From Microcaldota archaeon (GTDB taxonomy: Archaea; Micrarchaeota; Micrarchaeia; Anstonellales; J096), in the NCBI GenBank assembly GCA_026982895.1, contig JALWQW010000017.1:1-47447 (forward strand): a stretch of DNA of 47,447 nt. Reading direction: 5' to 3'. Below the pieces are notes generated by a model, which was given only the letters and a program-made list of their open reading frames with translations, had not been told where the DNA came from and did no database searches. Positions 664 to 44,997 of the stretch are shown piece by piece. The translations under genes and the position numbers were made by a program. The stretch's first letter is position 1; every line of letters begins with the position of its first letter.

Positions 664-770
664 AAGTTATATATTATGAGGGGAAGGGTTTAAAAGCTTA
701 TAGTTAGTGGTTAATTGTGAAATAATAAGCGTAATAAATAATTAAAAATAGATATGATTGAAATGCTTTA

Positions 771-2237
771 ATGGAGAACGAATCAAAAATTTATGAAAAG
801 CTCAACCAAGCGTGGAAAACAACCTCTAAGATTTTATTAGGTGGAGATGTCGGTGATTTAAAAGAGTATGAACATCTTTTGAGCGATGCTATAAGTGGCC
901 ACCTTGTCCAAAAAAACTCAACGGTTAGTAAAGAAATCGTTTCTGTCCCTTTAGAATATAAAGATTTAGTCGTTGCAAGGCTCAGCGAGGCGGATTCAAT
1001 ACCTAAATTAAAACTGGACATAAATGAGATAAAGGATATAGACTCAATTGTTGAACGCCTTAAAGAGGAATTTGTATATGTCGGTGACAGGATTTTAGGG
1101 CAATCTGCCTTTGTAGATCTCTCCACCCATATAACAGATTCATCGTACATCTATCAGTCATACAATATAGCCAATTCAAAATACATAGTTTACTCGGCCA
1201 ATATAAGGAACTTCTCATACGCCTTCGGTTCTATGACCATAGGCACAGGTTCATTTACCATACTCTCCAGAAATACGGGAGGAACAAACACGAGCAGAAT
1301 GTTTGAAGTATTTATAACAATAGATTCTTCCGATGTTTATTATACAACTCATTGCACAGGCTGTAGGGATACATTCTTCACTTTCTTTAAAGATGGTGCT
1401 CACAACACCATTGGAAATCTACAGCTTCCTCCTGATAAGTACAAACAGCTTAAGGCAACACTCCTTGAAGAAATTAGGGACAATCTAAAAGCCAAGAAAC
1501 ACGTTAGCTTATTTGATTTATTCACACCAGAAGAGGTGGAAAGGAGAGGCCAATTAAAAAAGGCAGTATTAGAGAAGCTTCCTTCAATTGAATTAGGCGA
1601 GAAACCCTTTTCAAAAGAAAGTATAGATAAAGCATTTAAAGCCACTTTCAAAATGATGTTTAGCAAAGAACTCGATGGTTCCATAGATGATTATGCTGGT
1701 TGGCTCACAAAAGAGACGCCTTACTACAATATACAAGTCTACCCCTCATTTATAACCGGAGAAGATGTAAAAATTTGTCCACCAATACTTGGAAGCAAGT
1801 GGTTCGATAAAGCAAAAGAAGGTTCTCTTGTAACAAAAAAGGAGGCTAAAGTAATAGCTATGTTGAATCTTTCAGAAGAAGAAGTTGGACAAATTTCATT
1901 GAAAGATCTTGAAAAGACGAAGAAAATACTATCTGTTATATATGCACTAAATGAAAGATATCTACATGAATCTATCAATTATGACAATTCCCCTTTAATA
2001 TATAACTCACAGCATGTCTACAACAGCCCTATATCTACATTATCAAAATATATGGGTTATACAGTATATCCACGACAAAGCGCCTATCAATTTGGTTCAG
2101 CTTTAACCTTACATAGTGAATTTGGTATAAATGTTTATCACAGTCATGGAGTAAAGCGCGGCTTCGAAGTCGATAACTCTGCCCACAGCAGCGACATTTA
2201 TTTCAGCCATAACTGCGAGGGCAGCGTAATAGCATAG
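771..2237 (+). CDS. Hypothetical two-module repeat protein (Ser/Tyr/Asn-rich beta-repeat followed by a QLPxxKYxxLKxxLLEEI motif)
   Basis: 488-aa ORF; first module ends HCTGC...IGNLQLPPDKYKQLKATLLEEI...LFDLF; a second similar module starts near aa 405 and is truncated. Confidence 0.7.
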   Translation: MENESKIYEKLNQAWKTTSKILLGGDVGDLKEYEHLLSDAISGHLVQKNSTVSKEIVSVPLEYKDLVVARLSEADSIPKLKLDINEIKDIDSIVERLKEEFVYVGDRILGQSAFVDLSTHITDSSYIYQSYNIANSKYIVYSANIRNFSYAFGSMTIGTGSFTILSRNTGGTNTSRMFEVFITIDSSDVYYTTHCTGCRDTFFTFFKDGAHNTIGNLQLPPDKYKQLKATLLEEIRDNLKAKKHVSLFDLFTPEEVERRGQLKKAVLEKLPSIELGEKPFSKESIDKAFKATFKMMFSKELDGSIDDYAGWLTKETPYYNIQVYPSFITGEDVKICPPILGSKWFDKAKEGSLVTKKEAKVIAMLNLSEEEVGQISLKDLEKTKKILSVIYALNERYLHESINYDNSPLIYNSQHVYNSPISTLSKYMGYTVYPRQSAYQFGSALTLHSEFGINVYHSHGVKRGFEVDNSAHSSDIYFSHNCEGSVIA

Positions 2238-2371
2238 GACACAATCAGCTGCCAAGGGAGAAATATTTGGAGATAAAGGCCGCTCTGTTAGAGCAGATAT
2301 GGAGCGAGCTCAATGCAAAGAAGGACTTCCGCTATGGGATTTATTCGCTGGTGAGGAAGAAAAGTTAATAA
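2238..2371 (+). pseudogene. Frameshifted remnant of the second module of the upstream ORF
   Basis: Frame starting at 2234 reads IGHNQLPREKYLEIKAALLEQIWSELNAKK, then another frame reads EGLPLWDLFAGEEEKL; matches IGNLQLPPDKYKQLKATLLEEIRDNLKAKKHVSLFDLFTPEEVE of module 1. Confidence 0.65.
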
Positions 2372-2456
2372 TTGTCAAGAATTTTTTCAAAAATGATTAT
2401 AAAGTGCTGCAAGCGCAAACTTTTATAAAAGTATTTAAGGTAATAGGATTGGAAGG

Positions 2457-4331
2457 TTGAGTGAGATGGTGGAGAGAATTATCAAGGATGTACGGGAAGT
2501 CGGCTTCTACAAAGAAAACATCGAAGAAAAGGATATACATGAGCTTTTGGAAACAATAAGTAAACACCATCTTCCTCTATTAGGACTTATCAACTTCGAA
2601 TGGTTTTTCTACAATTTTCCCAAAATATATATCAAAAAAGTCGGCAACACGTTTCATATGTACATAGAAAGCAAAAAAGAGGTCAAACGCATCTCACATT
2701 TGCTTTTTCCCTTTAAAATAAGCCCTCCTGAAGAAGTTGAACTATTAAGAGGTAAAGGTATACCTGGAATCACTTTCGCCAGAAGCAATTTCATAGAATT
2801 TATGTTGAAGGGTGGGTTTGAAGAGGTCCATTTAAAGATATATAAAATATTGGGCAGATATATTATGAAGGGTAGCGCTATAAGCGAGGAAAATGGTCAG
2901 AAGACTCACTTCTTTGCAGATCCTATAAAATTTCTAAAATTCAACCTCTTGGAGCATCCATCCATATATATAGAAATACTCCAGCCACTCCTAAAAACCT
3001 TTGGCCTAAAATCAAACGAGCCTCTCTTTGAAACAGAGGATATATCTATAGGCTTGGACAATTTCGAACCTGTACAGCACACACTTGTTGTGGGTGAAAG
3101 CGGAAGCGGAAAATCCGTTTTCTTAATGATGTACATTCTAGCGCTCTTATATAAATATGGGGACAATTTAAGGCTTATTGTTATAGATCCTCATGGAGAG
3201 TTTAATCAAAAGCTCAAAATAGATGGGCGTTTCGTCGTAGATTATATAAATTATTATATAGACCCTGTCCAACTACCTTCATCAAATGATTCTCCGATGT
3301 ATGCTCAACTTATCACCCAACTTATCATGAACACAATAGGAAGTGAAAACAAATATGCTGAGAGAGTGGCCTTCCACGCAGTCTATCTTTTACTATCTAT
3401 AGGTAAGTTAAACCTCAGCAATCTCAAGGAGCTCCTCGTAGATGAACTGAAGAGGGGCGAGTTCTTATCTGAAACAGAAAATGAAGAATTGAAGGTATTC
3501 TTCGATAACGAATACAACGATATTTATACCTCCCACTTCAACGAGGCTATTCTTCCCGTTATAAATTTCATAAGTGAATATCTTCTTCATATGGGAAAAG
3601 GTGGTGAAGAAGTATCCTTAACAGAACTACTAAAAAAGCACAGACTAGTTACAATATCTTTTGACCCAAATAAATTCAGCAAAAACATGATTCGCTTTTT
3701 ATCAGGTAGTATAATGAATACAATGTATATCGAAGCTATAACGGGAAAGATAAAAACTCCCACAATGTTGATTATTGACGAGTTTCCACGCGTAACAAAC
3801 CAAGTGCTAGCAAATATATTGGCAGAAACAAGGAAATTCAGATTATTTACCACTCTTGCCACACAATATTTAAGTCAATTGCCCAAAGATATCTTAGACG
3901 CTGTCATAAGCAATGTGAGAAACATCATAGCCTTCAAGCTCCATAAAAAGGATGCTGAGCTTCTAAGCGGAGCCATGAATATGAAAATAGAGGAATACTT
4001 CTTAAAGAATAGAAGCACTACAGAACTTGAAATGGAGCGTGTGGATTTATTTGTAAGATTACATAAAAGAGAAGCAGTGGTTAGGTTATTTGACGGTGAA
4101 AAGTATTTTGATCCTATGGTTGTGAAGACAGTAGACGCCAATAATTGGTTTAGATATATGAATCAAATAGATGCTTATGTAAAAGGACATAATACAACTG
4201 TGAAGGGGTTGCTGCGAAAGATAGAGGCAAAGGCTCCAAAAGCCAAGAAAAGCTCTTCTGAAGATAATGTTCCTTCTGAAGAAAAGGAAGAAAATCCCTT
4301 CAAAAAAAGAGGTCCTATGGATGATGAATAA
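2457..4331 (+). CDS. HerA/VirB4-like (DUF87-type) P-loop ATPase
   Basis: Walker A VVGESGSGKSVF, LIVIDPHGEF, Walker B TMLIIDEFPR, LFTTLATQYLSQLP; start is TTG at 2457 or ATG at 2466. Confidence 0.8.
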   Translation: MSEMVERIIKDVREVGFYKENIEEKDIHELLETISKHHLPLLGLINFEWFFYNFPKIYIKKVGNTFHMYIESKKEVKRISHLLFPFKISPPEEVELLRGKGIPGITFARSNFIEFMLKGGFEEVHLKIYKILGRYIMKGSAISEENGQKTHFFADPIKFLKFNLLEHPSIYIEILQPLLKTFGLKSNEPLFETEDISIGLDNFEPVQHTLVVGESGSGKSVFLMMYILALLYKYGDNLRLIVIDPHGEFNQKLKIDGRFVVDYINYYIDPVQLPSSNDSPMYAQLITQLIMNTIGSENKYAERVAFHAVYLLLSIGKLNLSNLKELLVDELKRGEFLSETENEELKVFFDNEYNDIYTSHFNEAILPVINFISEYLLHMGKGGEEVSLTELLKKHRLVTISFDPNKFSKNMIRFLSGSIMNTMYIEAITGKIKTPTMLIIDEFPRVTNQVLANILAETRKFRLFTTLATQYLSQLPKDILDAVISNVRNIIAFKLHKKDAELLSGAMNMKIEEYFLKNRSTTELEMERVDLFVRLHKREAVVRLFDGEKYFDPMVVKTVDANNWFRYMNQIDAYVKGHNTTVKGLLRKIEAKAPKAKKSSSEDNVPSEEKEENPFKKRGPMDDE

Positions 4332-4429
4332 TGTTTCATTTATTGGTTAAAACACTCCTTTTTAAAACTTTATTATTAACAATATAACAGTGCATAAAGC
4401 AGTTGGCGGGTACGGGCTAAGGTGTTAAT

Positions 4430-5602
4430 ATGGCAGGCAAAAACAAAACCAAAGCCAAGATAAGCAAAGAAGATTATAAGCTAATACGGGCGAAGATAAA
4501 AGTAAAATTAGGAGCGTATAAGATAAACCCTGATAAAGCAGAGAGCTATTTAGAGCGATTTAAAGGCCTAGACATTGCAAGCATAGGTGAAGAAAGGGTT
4601 GAGTTGCTCATAAGAGAAGAGGCTGAGAAGAGCGAAGACCCTTCTATGCTTTTTGAGTTGGGTGTGATTAGCGAGACGCTTATAAAGTGGGAGAAGGATA
4701 CAGCAATTCTTGATGCTATGATTACAGTAACAGAGGAGTTCAAAAAGCTTGGAAAGAGGATTGATAAGATATCAGCCATAGATCTTCACTATGCAGGCCT
4801 TTCGAAAATAAGAATGGAATATGGAGTCTATAATCTTCTCAAGATGGTAAAGCCCGATTTAAAGCCGTGGCAGTTAAATAGAGTTCCTGAAGGATATTGG
4901 GATGATCCAAAGAATGTGAAGGAAGCGGTTGAGTGGCTTGTGGAAGAGATGGTAAAAGAGGGAAAGAAAATTGAGGATATAAATCGAAAGGATTTCAGGG
5001 ATGCGGGGCTCGAAGTATTATTAAACAAGTACGGAAAAGTTGAGCTTCTTAAAATGATTAAACCTAATTTAAAGCAGTGGCAATTAAATAGGGTTCCTGA
5101 AGGATATTGGGATAATCCAAAGAATGTGAAGGAAGCGGTTGAGTGGCTTGTAGAAAAAAAAGCGAAAGAAGGGAAGAAAATATGGGAGATAACTCAGGAT
5201 GATTTTAAGAATGCTGGGCTCGGACGAGTATTATATGTAGGAAGTGTGTATAAACTCTTAAAAATGATTAAGCCAGACTTAAAGTCCTGGCAGTTAAATA
5301 GAGTTTCTAGAAAAATTTGGGATGATCCTGAGCATATAAAGGAAGCAGTGGAGTGGCTTGTTGAGGAGATGGCAAAAGAAGGGAAGAGAATTGAAGATAT
5401 ATCTGCAAAAGATTTTTTAGATGCTGGCCTAAAAACTGTACTGTATAAAAAGGGTCTTTATGGTCTTTTAAAAATGGTTAAGCCCGACTTAAAGCCATGG
5501 AACTTGAAACATCTTCCAAATAACTTTTGGGATGATCCTAAGCATATAAAGGAAGCAGTGGAGTGGCTTGTAGAAAAAAAGCGAAAGAAGGGAAGAAAAT
5601 AA
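4430..5602 (+). CDS. Tandem 70-aa repeat protein, N-terminal part; 0-frame product ends soon after an A7 run
   Basis: Repeats of the form WDDPKNVKEAVEWLVEEMxKEGKKIEDIxxKDFxxAGLxxLxxxxGxxxLLKMxKPDLKPWQLNRVPEGY. Confidence 0.8.
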   Translation: MAGKNKTKAKISKEDYKLIRAKIKVKLGAYKINPDKAESYLERFKGLDIASIGEERVELLIREEAEKSEDPSMLFELGVISETLIKWEKDTAILDAMITVTEEFKKLGKRIDKISAIDLHYAGLSKIRMEYGVYNLLKMVKPDLKPWQLNRVPEGYWDDPKNVKEAVEWLVEEMVKEGKKIEDINRKDFRDAGLEVLLNKYGKVELLKMIKPNLKQWQLNRVPEGYWDNPKNVKEAVEWLVEKKAKEGKKIWEITQDDFKNAGLGRVLYVGSVYKLLKMIKPDLKSWQLNRVSRKIWDDPEHIKEAVEWLVEEMAKEGKRIEDISAKDFLDAGLKTVLYKKGLYGLLKMVKPDLKPWNLKHLPNNFWDDPKHIKEAVEWLVEKKRKKGRK

Positions 5603-6156
5603 AGGAAATAACAGTAAAGGACTTTGTAGAGAATGGACTTACCACAATACTGAGGAAGTATAATTTGTATGCTCTTCTCAAAATGGTAAAGCCCGATCTA
5701 AAACCATGGGAATTGAATAGGGTGCCTAATGAATATTGGAATAATCCCAAAAATGTGAAAGAGGCAGTGGAGTGGTTAGTTAATGAGATGGTAAAGAAAG
5801 GGAAGAAGATAGAAGATATATCTGCACAGGATTTTAAGGATGCTGGATTAGGTGGTCTAATACAATATGTAGAGTTATACGAACTCATAAGAATTGTTAA
5901 GCCCGATCTAAAGCCCTGGCAATTAAACCAAGTTCCTCCTGGTTATTGGCACAACCCAGAGAATGTAAAAGAAGCTGTAGAATGGTTAGTAGAGAAAAAA
6001 GCGAAGGAGGGGAAGAGAATCGAAGAGATATCGGTGCAGGATTTCATTGACGCGGGGCTTAGCACCTTATTTAATAAACATAAAAAAGCTGAGCTGTTGA
6101 GGATGGTTAAGCCGGATTACGAGCACGACGATGATAAAACTCGCGACAAGCCTTAA
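5563..6156 (+). CDS. Continuation of the 70-aa repeat protein in the -1 frame (repeats 4-6)
   Basis: Same repeat register resumes as KAKEGKKIKEITVKDF...; joining at 5572-5580 restores VEKKAKEGKK as in repeat 2. Confidence 0.75.
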   Translation: MACRKKAKEGKKIKEITVKDFVENGLTTILRKYNLYALLKMVKPDLKPWELNRVPNEYWNNPKNVKEAVEWLVNEMVKKGKKIEDISAQDFKDAGLGGLIQYVELYELIRIVKPDLKPWQLNQVPPGYWHNPENVKEAVEWLVEKKAKEGKRIEEISVQDFIDAGLSTLFNKHKKAELLRMVKPDYEHDDDKTRDKP

Positions 6157-37949: not shown

Positions 37950-39392
37950 ATGGTCAGGAAAAATAAAATAGAGGTAAAGAAAAGGGAATTGAGGCAGAAG
38001 TCTAAAAGAGAAGAGCCGCCATTAGAAGACAAACTCATGATAAGTAGGGAAAAAAGAGTCAAGGCACTAATAGAGAAAATAGGGGGCAAATGGAAGGCTT
38101 TGGGCGAAGAACTTTATAAGATTTATAAAGAGGATAAAGAAGAGGCCTTTGGGCTTATAAATGCCATCAACACCAAGCTCAAGATAAAACAGCCAAAAGT
38201 AGAGTATGAAGAGCTCGAGAAGTGGTTAAATCTCTTGGTAGATGAAAAGTTGGCTTTCTCCTTAGATGATAAAGAAATGGTTAAAGCTGTGTTGGGTTTA
38301 GCTACCTTCTCTGGGCTGAAAGGGATAGGAAGTGAAGAGAATGTAAAGAAGAGCTTTGCCATGGTCGTGCTGAAGGAAGCTATGAAGAGCAATAACATTA
38401 GTAGGCGAGAGACAGCAGCTTGGCTTATAATTAGGCTCGGCTTGCAGAAGGAGCTTAAAGCGGAGTTGATGTTGTTGATGTTTGATGGCATAAGTGATGT
38501 GAGAGAAGTGGCTAAAAAGGCATGGAAGAAAGCTGGCTTTGGCAATGCGAAGGCAGTGTATGAGCGAATGAAAGAAGAGGAAAAAGAGCGAGTAAAAGAG
38601 CTAATAAGAGAGGCAGCGAGGAGTGATGATTTGGATTGGGGAAGACGATATGCAGCAGCTAAGCTCATAGGCGAGCTTGGCTTACAGGAGGAATTCTTAG
38701 ATAAGCTGGTAGAGCTAGTATTCGATGAGGAAGTGGTGGCTAAAGCAGCAGCCAAAGCCCTTAACAAATGGAGCAAAAGGCTGAGGAAGAGGGGCATCAG
38801 TGCAAGAGAGGAGTTAGAGAAGAGAAAGCAGGAATGGAAGAAAGAGATAAAGGAGAGAATAAGAAAGCTGATAGAAAAAGGGGATTTCCACCCTTCTCTT
38901 GATGCTATAAGGGCATTCCGTTGGTTAGAGGATTATAAGCCTGAACTGCTCCTCCTCTCCTTTGTGGAGGATAAAGAAGTTAAGAGAGTAGCAAAGATGG
39001 AGCTGCTGAAGAGGTATGGTGTAGGAAGCCTAATAAGAGGGAAGCCAAAATTAACAGACAAAGAAAGAGATGAGCTGAAGCAGCTAGTAGAGGAGGTAAT
39101 GAGAGAGGGTGATAATAAGGCAAGGGAGGCAGCGGTTAAGCTAGCCTTGAAGCTTAAGTCTTATGCGCTGTTATTGATTGTATGGCCTTATCTGCTCTGG
39201 GAGCCCTCGTTGTTAGATGAGAAAAGTGCGGAAAAAGCCAAAAAGTATATGAGGAAGCTCTTTGGAGAGCTGAGGTCCAACGTGGCTAAGAGGAAAGAAA
39301 GCAAGGCAAGCTTAGCTAACCCCTTCGCCCTCTCTACGCAAGCGAAGCTCGTCGGAGAGCTAGCCCTAGCTATGGCAGTGCTCTGCTTATAA
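37950..39392 (+). CDS. HEAT-repeat-like helical protein, tandem paralogue 1
   Basis: Shares organisation with the next ORF: KEDKEEAFGLINAINTK and C-terminus LANPFALSTQAKLVGELALAMAVLCL. Confidence 0.7.
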   Translation: MVRKNKIEVKKRELRQKSKREEPPLEDKLMISREKRVKALIEKIGGKWKALGEELYKIYKEDKEEAFGLINAINTKLKIKQPKVEYEELEKWLNLLVDEKLAFSLDDKEMVKAVLGLATFSGLKGIGSEENVKKSFAMVVLKEAMKSNNISRRETAAWLIIRLGLQKELKAELMLLMFDGISDVREVAKKAWKKAGFGNAKAVYERMKEEEKERVKELIREAARSDDLDWGRRYAAAKLIGELGLQEEFLDKLVELVFDEEVVAKAAAKALNKWSKRLRKRGISAREELEKRKQEWKKEIKERIRKLIEKGDFHPSLDAIRAFRWLEDYKPELLLLSFVEDKEVKRVAKMELLKRYGVGSLIRGKPKLTDKERDELKQLVEEVMREGDNKAREAAVKLALKLKSYALLLIVWPYLLWEPSLLDEKSAEKAKKYMRKLFGELRSNVAKRKESKASLANPFALSTQAKLVGELALAMAVLCL

Positions 39393-39443
39393 TCCAGAAA
39401 ACAGGCTTTTAAGCTTTTCTAGGCTCAATATAAATGGATAATC

Positions 39444-41216
39444 ATGCCTACTAAAAAACGAATAATGAAACAGAAAGAGCAAAGGAGCACAGGAAAATTA
39501 AGCCCAAAACAAAGAGATGAAAAAGAGCCCCTAATAGAGAGGTTTGAAGAGAGTGTGGAAGAAAAAGCCTCAAAGCTATTGGAAGAAACAAAGGATGATT
39601 GGGAAAGGATGGGCAAAAAGCTCTATGAGATTTATACAAAAGATAAAGAGGAGGCCTTTGAGCTTATTAGCGATATAAATAGGAAAAGAGGAGAAAGGAA
39701 AATTAAGGTCGATATTCTTAATAAAAAAGCTCAAAGATGGGAAAAATTGGTGGAGGAAGGATTAAAGCTGTTGGGAGGAGAAGGCCTCAACTTTTCCATG
39801 GAAAAAAGCAGAAAACGAACAGAGGCTGTATTGAGCTTGGCAGCGTTTTCAGGCATCAAAGAAATAAAAAACGACTATGACTTAAAAAAGGCGTTTGCCA
39901 AAGTTCTTATAAAAGAAATAATAAACCCCTATGATGAGAGGCTTTCCTTAGCGATAGACCTCACACAAAATCTCAAATTGTACGATGAATTATTGTTGGA
40001 TTTGATAATAATAGCATATCATGATGAATGGGGGGCAGAAGAGAAAGCCATAGACACCGTAATTAATTATGATCATATAAGAGATGTAATGAAAGATGTA
40101 ACGAAGAAGAACCCAAAAATGGCTAAAGAGATAAAGAAGATAATATTGGAGGGTGTGGAAATAGGAGAAATATGGAAATCTTATGTATCTGCCACACTTA
40201 TTAAAGAGCTGGGCTTGCAGGAAGAATTCTTAGAAGTATTGGAAGAGCTATTGTTTTTCCACGATGAAGACAGAACAGACAACAGAGTCAATTTAACAGC
40301 AGCAGAAGCCCTCTTTGAGTGGAGCCCTGAATTATGGAATGAAGCCATTGCATCTGACGAAGCAGATAAGAGAAAGAAGGAGTTGAAAGAAAGAATAACA
40401 AGAGGATTAAGAAGCTGGATAATAAATACGGAAGGCTTAGATAAAGAAGAGGCCATAAACATTATCTCTATATTGGGTTTACATGAGAAATTTGTTTATG
40501 AGCTTCTCGACAGCCTATTTGATGAAGATTTAGATGTTGTGAAGGCTGCTATACCCGCTATTCGAGATTGGAATGAACAATTAAAAAACAGAAGCAGCAG
40601 TATCAAAAACATCATAATAAAGCTTGGATTGTTAAATGAATTTAAAGAGAAGATTGATGAAAAGCTAAGCAATGGCGAGGAGGCGGCGAGATACGGAAGC
40701 ATAGCACTTATAGCTGAGTTGGATTTAGAGGACGAATTCTTCCATAAGCTCTTGAATAGAATCTTTGAAGAAGATGAGAGCTATATCATATCTACAGCAG
40801 CAGAAATCGTAGGACTTTGGAACAATAAGCTAAAAGAGTGGAGGAGCAGTGGTGTAAAATACCTGGAGAAAAATGATCCTAAGATAGTTAATGAGATGGT
40901 AGAAAAAATAGAGGTGGGTTTAAAGAGTAAAAAATGGCAACAGCGGTACGCAGCCGTTCAGCTCATAGCCCATTTAGACTTGTGGGAGTGGTTTTTATTT
41001 GGGCTTGTTCCTTTAATCAACGATAGGGAAAGGATTATTCAACAAGTGTTAAAACATATGAAACCCAACCTCAAAGAGCGTGTAATAAAGAGAGTGAAAG
41101 ACATTGAAGAGCACACCAAAAAAGACCCTGCTGGATTAACTAATCCCTTCACCACAACTTCTTATGAGAAAAACAGAGAGGCGCTCGCCACAGCCCTTTT
41201 TCTCTTATGCATTTAA
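39444..41216 (+). CDS. HEAT-repeat-like helical protein, tandem paralogue 2
   Basis: TKDKEEAFELISDINRK and C-terminus LTNPFTTTSYEKNREALATALFLLCI. Confidence 0.7.
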   Translation: MPTKKRIMKQKEQRSTGKLSPKQRDEKEPLIERFEESVEEKASKLLEETKDDWERMGKKLYEIYTKDKEEAFELISDINRKRGERKIKVDILNKKAQRWEKLVEEGLKLLGGEGLNFSMEKSRKRTEAVLSLAAFSGIKEIKNDYDLKKAFAKVLIKEIINPYDERLSLAIDLTQNLKLYDELLLDLIIIAYHDEWGAEEKAIDTVINYDHIRDVMKDVTKKNPKMAKEIKKIILEGVEIGEIWKSYVSATLIKELGLQEEFLEVLEELLFFHDEDRTDNRVNLTAAEALFEWSPELWNEAIASDEADKRKKELKERITRGLRSWIINTEGLDKEEAINIISILGLHEKFVYELLDSLFDEDLDVVKAAIPAIRDWNEQLKNRSSSIKNIIIKLGLLNEFKEKIDEKLSNGEEAARYGSIALIAELDLEDEFFHKLLNRIFEEDESYIISTAAEIVGLWNNKLKEWRSSGVKYLEKNDPKIVNEMVEKIEVGLKSKKWQQRYAAVQLIAHLDLWEWFLFGLVPLINDRERIIQQVLKHMKPNLKERVIKRVKDIEEHTKKDPAGLTNPFTTTSYEKNREALATALFLLCI

Positions 41217-41339: not shown

Positions 41340-41364
41340 GGAAGGAAGATGGATAATTACTAGG
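41340..41364 (-). other. 3' strand of 23S pre-rRNA processing stem
   Basis: RNA CCUAGUAAUUAUCCAUCUUCCUUCC, complementary (24 Watson-Crick plus 1 G-U) to 44973-44997. Confidence 0.8.
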
Positions 41365-42309
41365 CGATCCCTTTAGTAGTGGCTAGCTAAACACCTCGAA
41401 GTTTCCCCCTTGGTGCTTACACTACCACCCTATCAAACCCATCTGCTGTGGGCGGACTTAGGAGCCTAGTCTTGGGAGTGGCTTCGACCTTAGATGCTTT
41501 CAGGTCTTATCCACATGGGGCGTAGCTGCTCGGCAGTGCCAATTGACAACCGATCGACCAGAGGCCCCGAGTCCCCGTTCCTCTCGTACTGAAGGACCCT
41601 TACCCTCAGGCTCCAACGCTCCCAGTAGATACTACCGTACTGTCTCGCGACGTACTGAACCCAGCTCATGTGGGTCTTTAACGGATGAACAAACCGACCC
41701 TTGGTGGCTCCTGCACCACCAGGATGACCCAAGCCGACAGCGATGTACCAAACCGCGGGGTCGATGTGTACTCTCGCCCGCGACAAGTCTGTTACCCCCG
41801 GGGTAGCTTGTCTGACAGAGTAGGCTCCCACTAAAGGAGCACTACTGTTCGATAAGCCATGCTTTCGCAGCTGCTTTCCACGCTTTTAGGAAAGCAGTCA
41901 GGCCGACATATGTCTTTATCCCTCTGCGACGGATTTCTGACCCGTCTGAGTCGACCTTTGGGCACCCATGTTTCTTTATCGTGGGTGTACCGCCCCAGCC
42001 AAACTACCCACCAGACGCTGTCCCCTTTTCAGGGTAAACTCCGCTAGTCGAAATAGGTGGTGTTCCATTGGCGCCTCTGCCGCCCCCGGAAGGACGGCTT
42101 CGAAGGCTCCCACCTACGCTCTGTATCCCGACCAGCGAAATAACGCCTGGCTGTAGTAAAGCTCCACGGGGTCTTCGTTTCCCACTGGGAGTCCCCGGCA
42201 TCTTCACCGGGCAGTGAGTTCACAGGGTCCCAGGCAGGGACAGTGGGAGAGTCGTTACGCCATTCATGCAAGCCGCCAATTAAGCGGCGAGGTATTACGC
42301 TACCTTAAG

Positions 42310-43033
42310 CAACTCCTATTGTCATGGCTTATGCCAAAACAACAAGAGCTGGACCATATCACTCTTCCTCCGAGCCTCTCAGCTCTTCTTGGAGGAAGCC
42401 CTGGCGTATGGCCTCTGAGGACTCCCACCTTTTAGAGAAGACAAAACCTCCTCTAAAGAGCGCTTCCTTGGCTGCTTTGTCGCCTTATAAGCAAGCTTCA
42501 ACAACCTTATGAAGCCTTCACGAGTCCAATGCTCCTTATGTTCTAAGCCCTCTACGATCTCAGCAAAGAGCTGAAAATCACGGGCCTTAACTACAAGCTT
42601 GTGTTTCTTAAAAAAAGGCAGGATTTTCTCAATCAACTGCCTCCTGTTATCGACAACATATTGCCATTCATCTTGGCCATGCTTCTTTTCCACCCTTCCA
42701 GCGTTGAACACGACCTTCATAGTGTCTAACACTATCCTGTCTTTTTGTACAACATGGAAAACAGGGTCAAGAACATAGCCAAAACGCATGCCTTCTTGTT
42801 TCTTTACACTAACGCTAAAGCAACCCTCTGCATCGACAAAACCTACAATATACCAATGCAGATACTTGCGACGACGGGGATACTTTGTTGCGTTCTCGCC
42901 TAATTCATGTATCATTTTTTCACCTCGGTGGTTGCCTGCTGATCTCCTGCACCGCTTCTGCGCTGTTCCTTGCTCAGGGGCAGAAGCCTTCGGATTCCCA
43001 GCATATAGCCAGGTTTTACGACCCCCTAAGTCG
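42310..43033 (-). other. Group I intron in 23S rRNA (724 nt)
   Basis: 5' exon GACCCU pairs with internal guide GGGGUC (U-G at splice site); P3 CCUGGC/GCCAGG; P4 UGCUG/CAGCA; P5 extension GCUUCUGC/GCAGAAGC; P7 GAGGCCAUA/UAUGGUCC with bulged A; P8 CUUCCUCC/GGAGGAAG; intron ends in G. Confidence 0.9.
42379..42915 (-). CDS. Single-motif LAGLIDADG homing endonuclease encoded within the 23S intron
   Basis: LHWYIVGFVDAEGCFSVSVKKQ; RBS-like GAGGTG upstream of ATG. Confidence 0.9.
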   Translation of the reverse strand: MIHELGENATKYPRRRKYLHWYIVGFVDAEGCFSVSVKKQEGMRFGYVLDPVFHVVQKDRIVLDTMKVVFNAGRVEKKHGQDEWQYVVDNRRQLIEKILPFFKKHKLVVKARDFQLFAEIVEGLEHKEHWTREGFIRLLKLAYKATKQPRKRSLEEVLSSLKGGSPQRPYARASSKKS

Positions 43034-44972
43034 AGGGTCAGAGTTACCCCCGCTCTTTACCAGCCCTTCTTCCCCTTGAAAAGGGCTTTCAGGTACTGGC
43101 AGTGAGCAGGCGTCGGCCACCGTGCTAAGCGTTTCCGCTTTGCGATGACCTGTGTTTTTGGTAAACAGTCGCTCTCCCCTGGTCACTGCGACCTGGACTC
43201 TCGCGAATCCAGGCACCCCTTCTAGCAAACATACAGGGCTAATTTGCCGAGTTCCCTTGCCTGGGTTCCCCCTACAGGGCTGAGCCTTTTCAGCTAGGGG
43301 CACCTGTATTGGTTCTAGGTACGGTCATGAAGGATCGTTCCTGGTCCCTTTTCATGGGCCCCAGGCATCAGTCTATTTACACCATAAAGGTTTACTTCCC
43401 TTCTCCTCATAACGAGACTCCGAGAAGTTATCCCTCTTAGACCTCCGAAGAGGCTAGACCTAGCCCAAGGCGTCAGGACACAGGCATGCGTTACCGAAGC
43501 CTACCTTCATGGGGCAGGAATATTAACCTGCTTCCCTTTCGTCTTTCAGGAGTTACCCTTAGACTTAGGACCGCCTAACCCGCAGCTGACGAACATTGCT
43601 GCGGAAACCGCGCCCTATCAGCCCCCTGGGATTCTCGCCCAGGTATGCTGCTACTAACGCCAGGATATTCATTCCAGACAGCTCCACACGACTTTACAGC
43701 CGTGCTTCTACGCTATCCGGACGCCCCCCTACTCAATGAGCCATTGGCTCTGGCAGGGTATCGGGAGCCGGCTTAGCCCCGTCAATCTTTGGAGACTGCC
43801 CTCTCGGCTGGTCCGCTGTTACGCGTTGCTTAGAGGGTGGCTGCTTCTAAGCCTACCTTCCAGCTGTCTGGGAGGAGAGCCTCCTTTGAGATTTACACTT
43901 AGCCGGCACTTAGGGCCCTTAACCCTGCGTACGGTCGTTCCCGTAAGGGCTCTCAGGCTTACCCCAGAGAAACCCCACTGCCGCCTTCTACGGAGCCTAA
44001 GGATTCGGAGTTCGATAGGGAAGTGAGGGATTTCTCCCCCGGGCTTCCCAGTCGGTGCTCTACCCCTTAGGCTTCCTCCAGCGACGCTGTCCTGAGGGAC
44101 ATTTCGGAGGGAACCCGCTATCGCCCGGCTCGATTGGCCTATCACCCCTATAGCAGAGTCACCCGAGGGGATATACCACCACCGGTTGAGGACCTCCACC
44201 AGCATTCCTGCTGGCTTCATCCTGCTCCGCCATAGATCGCGCGGGCTTCGGGTCTCCAGGCAGTGACTAAGCCCCCGTTAAGAGGCCGTCCCTTGCAGAG
44301 CTGCGGACTTTCGCTTTCGCTTCGGCTTTCGCCTCGCCACTACCCAGAACTCCCTGGCTCTTGCTTCGAGAAGAACGCCCGGACCTTGGATCACCCATTT
44401 CCCCGAAGTCGTTGCCTCCTCCGAGTTCCATGGGCCAACCTTTCAGGCCACGGGCCGCCTGTCCCCACCTAGTTTCAGGTTCTTTTAACCCTCCTGCCGG
44501 AGAACTTTTCAGCGTTCGCTCACGCTACTAATTCGCTATCGGTCTGTAGTTGCTATTTAGACTTGGGAGTTAGTTCTCCCATCTTCCCGCCCTCAGCCAG
44601 AGAACGGTACTCATCCAGTTCGCTCCTTCTGCCTTAATCTACGGGGCTTTCACCCTCTATGGCGTCCCATTCCAGGGAACTTCGACTCAACAGAAGGATG
44701 CTACCTCACACATCCACCATAACATTACTGCTATGGCATTCGTGACGGTCTGTCCGGGGTCCACTCGCGTTACTACCCGGATCGCTATTGCTTTCTTTTC
44801 CTCCCGGTACTAAGTTACTTCAATTTCCGGGGTGCTTCGTGCACCGTAAAAACGGCACACACTGCTCGATCCCAGGATTAACACCAGCATGCGGTTACCC
44901 TGGGCTTATCGCAGCTTGCCACGGAGCTTCGCTAACTACAGCCGAGCCATCCACTAGGTGGGTTGCAGCATA

Positions 44973-44997
44973 CCTAGTAATTACCCATCTTCCTTCC
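44973..44997 (-). other. 5' strand of 23S pre-rRNA processing stem
   Basis: RNA GGAAGGAAGAUGGGUAAUUACUAGG pairs with 41340-41364. Confidence 0.8.

Follow-up and report, generated by a model that had tools for sequence, protein, structure and literature searches.

We analysed a stretch of 47,447 nucleotides (hereafter the window; contig JALWQW010000017.1, positions 1 to 47,447) from a Microcaldota archaeon, in which a 23S rRNA gene on the minus strand is interrupted by an intron carrying a LAGLIDADG reading frame. The features of this locus are listed below, and the parts of the intron are given in the order in which they are transcribed.

41353-44975, minus strand: archaeal LSU (23S) rRNA gene, intron-interrupted (RF02540, 2393.9 bits)
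42310-43033, minus strand: group I intron, 724 nt, at LSU/1923 in E. coli numbering (exon restoration, empty site in genome G001, matches to covariance model R1)
43034-43039, minus strand: P1, 5' exon side GACCCU, whose last U pairs with the splice-site G (U-G in 31/31 introns)
43020-43025, minus strand: P1, internal guide sequence GGGGUC (covaries with the exon: GACUCU/GGAGUC, GAGACU/GGUCUC)
43008-43013, minus strand: P3 5' strand CCUGGC (read back; covariation)
42999-43003, minus strand: P4 5' strand UGCUG (read back; covariation)
42980-42987, minus strand: P5 extension 5' strand GCUUCUGC (31-intron comparison; all 9 pairs of the helix show covariation in alignment A2)
42954-42961, minus strand: P5 extension 3' strand GCAGAAGC (31-intron comparison)
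42937-42941, minus strand: P4 3' strand CAGCA (read back; 31-intron comparison)
42935-42936, minus strand: P6 5' strand GG, partner CC at 42419-42420 (31-intron comparison; sequence)
42921-42926, minus strand: Shine-Dalgarno-like GAGGTG upstream of the endonuclease ATG (such a motif in 12/31 introns)
42379-42915, minus strand: 178-aa ORF of a LAGLIDADG_1 homing endonuclease, within the P6 loop (PF00961, 1.2e-16; purifying selection)
42407-42415, minus strand: P7 5' strand GAGGCCAUA, with bulged A at 42414 and guanosine-site G at 42413 (bulged A in 31/31)
42400-42405, minus strand: P3 3' strand GCCAGG (read back; covariation)
42391-42398, minus strand: P8 5' strand CUUCCUCC (read back; 31-intron comparison)
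42364-42371, minus strand: P8 3' strand GGAGGAAG (read back; 31-intron comparison)
42351-42358, minus strand: P7 3' strand UAUGGUCC (read back; 31-intron comparison)
42311-42350, minus strand: P9 hairpin region (minimum-energy fold)
42310, minus strand: terminal (omega) G of the intron (G in 31/31)

Removal of 43033-42310 rejoins the LSU exons as TGACCCT followed by CTTAAGGTAGCG. When the joined exons are aligned to E. coli K-12 rrlB, the insertion point falls after E. coli 23S position 1923, a classical rRNA intron site. The same junction is uninterrupted in the congeneric genome G001, whose flanking exons are 93-94% identical to those of the window, and the junction that an earlier note on this DNA had proposed (GACCCU followed by CTTAAGGTAGCG) stands on both exon restoration and an empty allele. 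Of 301 genomes in the phylum, 95 match the uninterrupted pattern exactly. In the LSU/1923 introns L006/L039 and L007/L018, the 3' exon reads CTTGAGG rather than CTTAAGG; many intronless genomes of the phylum also have this form, which thus represents a natural rRNA variant. No SSU or 5S rRNA gene was found around the 23S gene in the 47-kb window (1-47447), which suggests that the rRNA genes of this genome are unlinked. Side by side at 37950-41216 lie ORFs encoding 480 and 590 aa without a Pfam match; by eye their sequences are partly alike, and they are possibly helical-repeat proteins.

The folded core of the intron was compared among 31 archaeal introns at LSU/1923 with homologous endonucleases, the window intron included. 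At fixed positions of P1, P3, P4, P6 and P7, 824 of 837 cells are paired (98.4%), with P4 and P6 each paired at 100%, and 90 cells show double changes, whereas 1000 shuffles gave 29.5 (sd 7.0). The clearest changes are in P1, where the three main exon types GACCCU, GACUCU and GAGACU are matched by the guides GGGGUC, GGAGUC and GGUCUC/GGUCUG, respectively, and the splice-site U-G is preserved in all 31 introns. Three positions of P3 alternate between C-G and U-A; P4 alternates between U-A and G-C, and P7 between C-G and U-A. The bulged A of P7, the guanosine-site G-C pair and the terminal G are each present in 31/31, and P6 is extended in the window sequence by a P6a helix (CCACC/GGUGG). P10, the pairing with the 3' exon, is short or absent in several of the introns, which counts against a group I reading.

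A second alignment of 18 sequences, made with MAFFT and excluding Micrarchaeota, leads to the same core. With no structure supplied, RNAalifold recovered P4, P5, the P5 extension, P7 and P8 from it, with compensatory changes at 22 of 36 pairs. When the P3/P7 pseudoknot is included in the full structure, 95.5% of cells are paired versus 76.6% after shuffling, and sliding the partners by one to three columns lowers pairing to 41.2% or less. In the named structure with the P7 pseudoknot, 141 cells carry double changes, compared with 44.6 (sd 5.3) in shuffles. A covariance model built from this alignment, and hence without any Micrarchaeota (R1), matches both halves of the window intron as two pieces (E 7.3e-10 and 1.4e-3); it has no other match in the 1.01-Mb genome and none in the E. 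coli 23S rRNA. With the ORF deleted, the core folds at z = -4.65 relative to dinucleotide shuffles, and the minimum-energy fold contains P1, P4, P5, P6, P7, P8 and P9. P3 is missing from that fold because it is the pseudoknotted helix and cannot be shown together with P7. The structural features by which a group I intron is recognised are in place: a pseudoknotted P3-P7 core with P8, a P4-P6 domain, the U-G in P1, a guanosine-binding G-C beside the bulged base of P7 and a terminal G. The earlier note had paired this core by eye; both strands of P3, P4, P7 and P8, the guide, the splice-site U-G and the terminal G read back at the coordinates it gave. The group I architecture is confirmed by its anatomy, by the covariation and by a covariance model of independent origin.

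The reading frame in the P6 loop encodes a LAGLIDADG_1 protein, scoring 61.8 bits against PF00961 (cut-off 23.1). Its motif reads IVGFVDAEG, and D28, E30 and G31 do not vary among 10 aligned homologues. Strong purifying selection acts on the gene, with pS 0.91 and pN 0.22 against its nearest relative, and the endonucleases of the related introns L045/L051 have a dN/dS of about 0.11. The protein matches I-CeuI at 4.5e-11 and I-SmaMI at about 1e-34. The I-CeuI intron of Chlamydomonas chloroplasts occupies the same rRNA site, LSU/1923, and I-CeuI is likewise a single-motif LAGLIDADG endonuclease, but its host is a chloroplast and its sequence is distant, the archaeal enzyme being nearer to the I-SmaMI-like LAGLIDADG_1 group. 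A further counterpart is I-ShaI, encoded in a group I intron of the 23S gene of a CPR bacterium, which cuts DNA and forms a dimer (PMC11270868). It also has one LAGLIDADG_1 domain, although its host is a bacterium. Because the window enzyme has one LAGLIDADG motif, as I-ShaI does, it probably acts as a homodimer.

The tail of the ORF extends 12 codons beyond the start of the P7/P3/P8 core, so that its last codons overlap P7, P3 and P8, and such an overlap occurs in 29 of the 31 introns, the window intron among them. A dual function of this segment was considered and rejected: no protein-level constraint was found on the overlapping tail, and the core motif is free of stops in every frame, which makes the recurrence of the overlap no evidence for a double role. 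Twenty-six of the 29 overlapping introns share one frame through the core, with the window intron (42379-42420), L018 and L027 in other frames.

The standard Rfam model for group I introns, RF00028, does not detect this one. Searching the window whole and by halves, at the gathering threshold and at E values up to 10, gave no match; a match at another place in the genome (E 1.6, 11 bits) was put down to chance. The earlier note had named an RF00028 match on the minus strand as its check, and silence of the model together with a lack of covariation as what would speak against it; the model is indeed silent, but the covariation is strong. ORF-less introns of the phylum, found with R1, score 84.0, 74.3, 68.7 and 61.7 bits under RF00028, all above the cut-off, and the best-scoring of them (L099) lies at LSU/1923. 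In contrast, the published archaeal intron IB4.18 stays at 25.8 bits, well short of the cut-off (50), and none of the archaeal group I introns in Nawrocki et al. 2018 (PMC6125680) had a significant RF00028 match; silence of the model is therefore not negative evidence. Most likely, the window intron escapes detection because the endonuclease ORF in the P6 loop splits the core, with divergence contributing. RF00028 is a detector and not a defining feature of group I introns, and it is a poor criterion here. Such an intron in archaea can be fully concealed from the model by an endonuclease gene within its P6 loop, and surveys relying on RF00028 only thus undercount archaeal group I introns.

Almost all archaeal introns known before 2018 were of the bulge-helix-bulge kind, often with LAGLIDADG genes (PMC6125680), and a related solved endonuclease (3e54) is named an rRNA intron-encoded endonuclease. 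On this ground, the intron could be one that is removed by the tRNA splicing endonuclease and ligase and merely carries a LAGLIDADG gene, a reading that we consider very improbable. Such an intron requires a central 4-bp helix flanked by two 3-nt bulges. At the only two junction placements that restore the same rRNA, this helix has 0/4 and 1/4 pairs; across the 31 introns, the maximum was 2/4. The group I core, in contrast, is complete and covaries. No tRNA intron that could serve as a bulge-helix-bulge positive control came out of ARAGORN searches, and the junction scan is weaker than the covariation while pointing in the same direction. With the junctions failing the 4-bp helix and the group I core covarying, the earlier note was right to set bulge-helix-bulge splicing aside.

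There is a small chance that this is a degenerate group I intron that does not splice itself, leaving the 23S rRNA interrupted or depending on a helper protein. Its failure to match RF00028 would fit such decay, but every pair and invariant base of the catalytic core is preserved, its changes from relatives are compensatory, and the endonuclease reading frame is both open and constrained. We likewise give almost no credence to an artefact of assembly or binning that placed the 23S gene of a foreign organism in this genome. The absence of an SSU gene adjoining the 23S gene in the window might point that way; the exons, however, are close to the congeneric 23S gene (93-94%, as above) and 78-84% identical to that of another member of the family, and the closest intron also belongs to the same family.

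We therefore favour, with a probability of about 95%, a mobile group I intron at 23S position 1923 of a micrarchaeon, of subgroup IB4 by homology, with a P1-P9 core that is predicted to splice itself and a LAGLIDADG gene in the P6 loop for homing. The intron RNA would fold into the standard P1-P9 core, in which the guide pairs with the last bases of the 5' exon. Splicing would begin when a P7-bound guanosine attacks the 5' splice site; the 5' exon released by this step would then attack behind the terminal G, so that GACCCU is joined to CUUAAGG. The P6-loop endonuclease, probably as a homodimer, may cut intronless copies of the same rRNA site, and the cut would lead to the intron being copied in. 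A literature search found no report of splicing tests on archaeal group I introns, and the 31 same-site introns, with their matching exon-guide changes, offer a ready substrate for such tests.

Introns of this kind were already reported in archaea in 2018, and ours is another member at the same site and in the same phylum, adding a clear covariation-supported case. Micrarchaeota carry the LSU/1923 introns IB4.18, IB4.17 and IB4.20 (Nawrocki, Jones and Eddy 2018, PMC6125680), and one of our homologues (L049; MNVH01000001.1 10442-9750, 693 nt) has coordinates identical to those of IB4.18. This intron shares phylum, insertion site, core and a homologous endonuclease with the window intron, but it comes from a different species, its endonuclease is 45% identical, and its exon/guide type is GAGACU/GGUCUG rather than GACCCU/GGGGUC. 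Its homology at the same site would place the window intron in subgroup IB4. Three introns of related archaea at LSU/1931 (L011-L013) have the same core motifs and a LAGLIDADG gene within, but they lie 8 nt downstream (between GGT and AGCG), use another exon-guide pairing and encode distant endonucleases (34-38% identity).

The nearest endonuclease gene, 67-68% identical, comes from a Candidatus Micrarchaeota MAG in the same family, where it also sits inside a 23S gene, and most other relatives within the host phylum are labelled Micrarchaeota; from this we infer that the organism of the window is a micrarchaeon. A single-sequence search of genome contigs found no relatives, whereas an alignment query did. 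R1 matches 20 of 301 genomes of the phylum and most have none, a patchy distribution of the sort expected of a sporadic mobile element. Relatives also occur in MAGs labelled Bathyarchaeota, Sulfolobales, Brockarchaeota and Hermodarchaeum, which, provided that these MAGs are correctly binned, are additions to the 2018 host list. Tentatively, and at somewhat less than even odds, the LSU/1923 intron and its endonuclease may form one mobile lineage found in most archaeal phyla, with these additional hosts among them, and spread by horizontal homing between phyla and not by vertical descent. For the micrarchaeal endonucleases, the tree needs three changes, but a single clade is not rejected (p-AU 0.22), so the tree does not establish horizontal transfer between phyla.

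Other group I introns came to light in the same searches. Within the phylum, L102 and L107 lie near the 3' end of the SSU gene, as, from their sequence context, L108, L113 and L114 probably do, and L107 sits on the contig of the published IB4.19 (SSU/1498). In an Actinomycetota contig (L080; JAUJNI010000002.1), a bacterial 23S gene of about 5.1 kb (LSU 730-5875) contains four RF00028 matches (3288-3515, 3586-3935, 4565-4867 and 5208-5509), two of them far below the cut-off, and apparently harbours several group I introns within the one gene.
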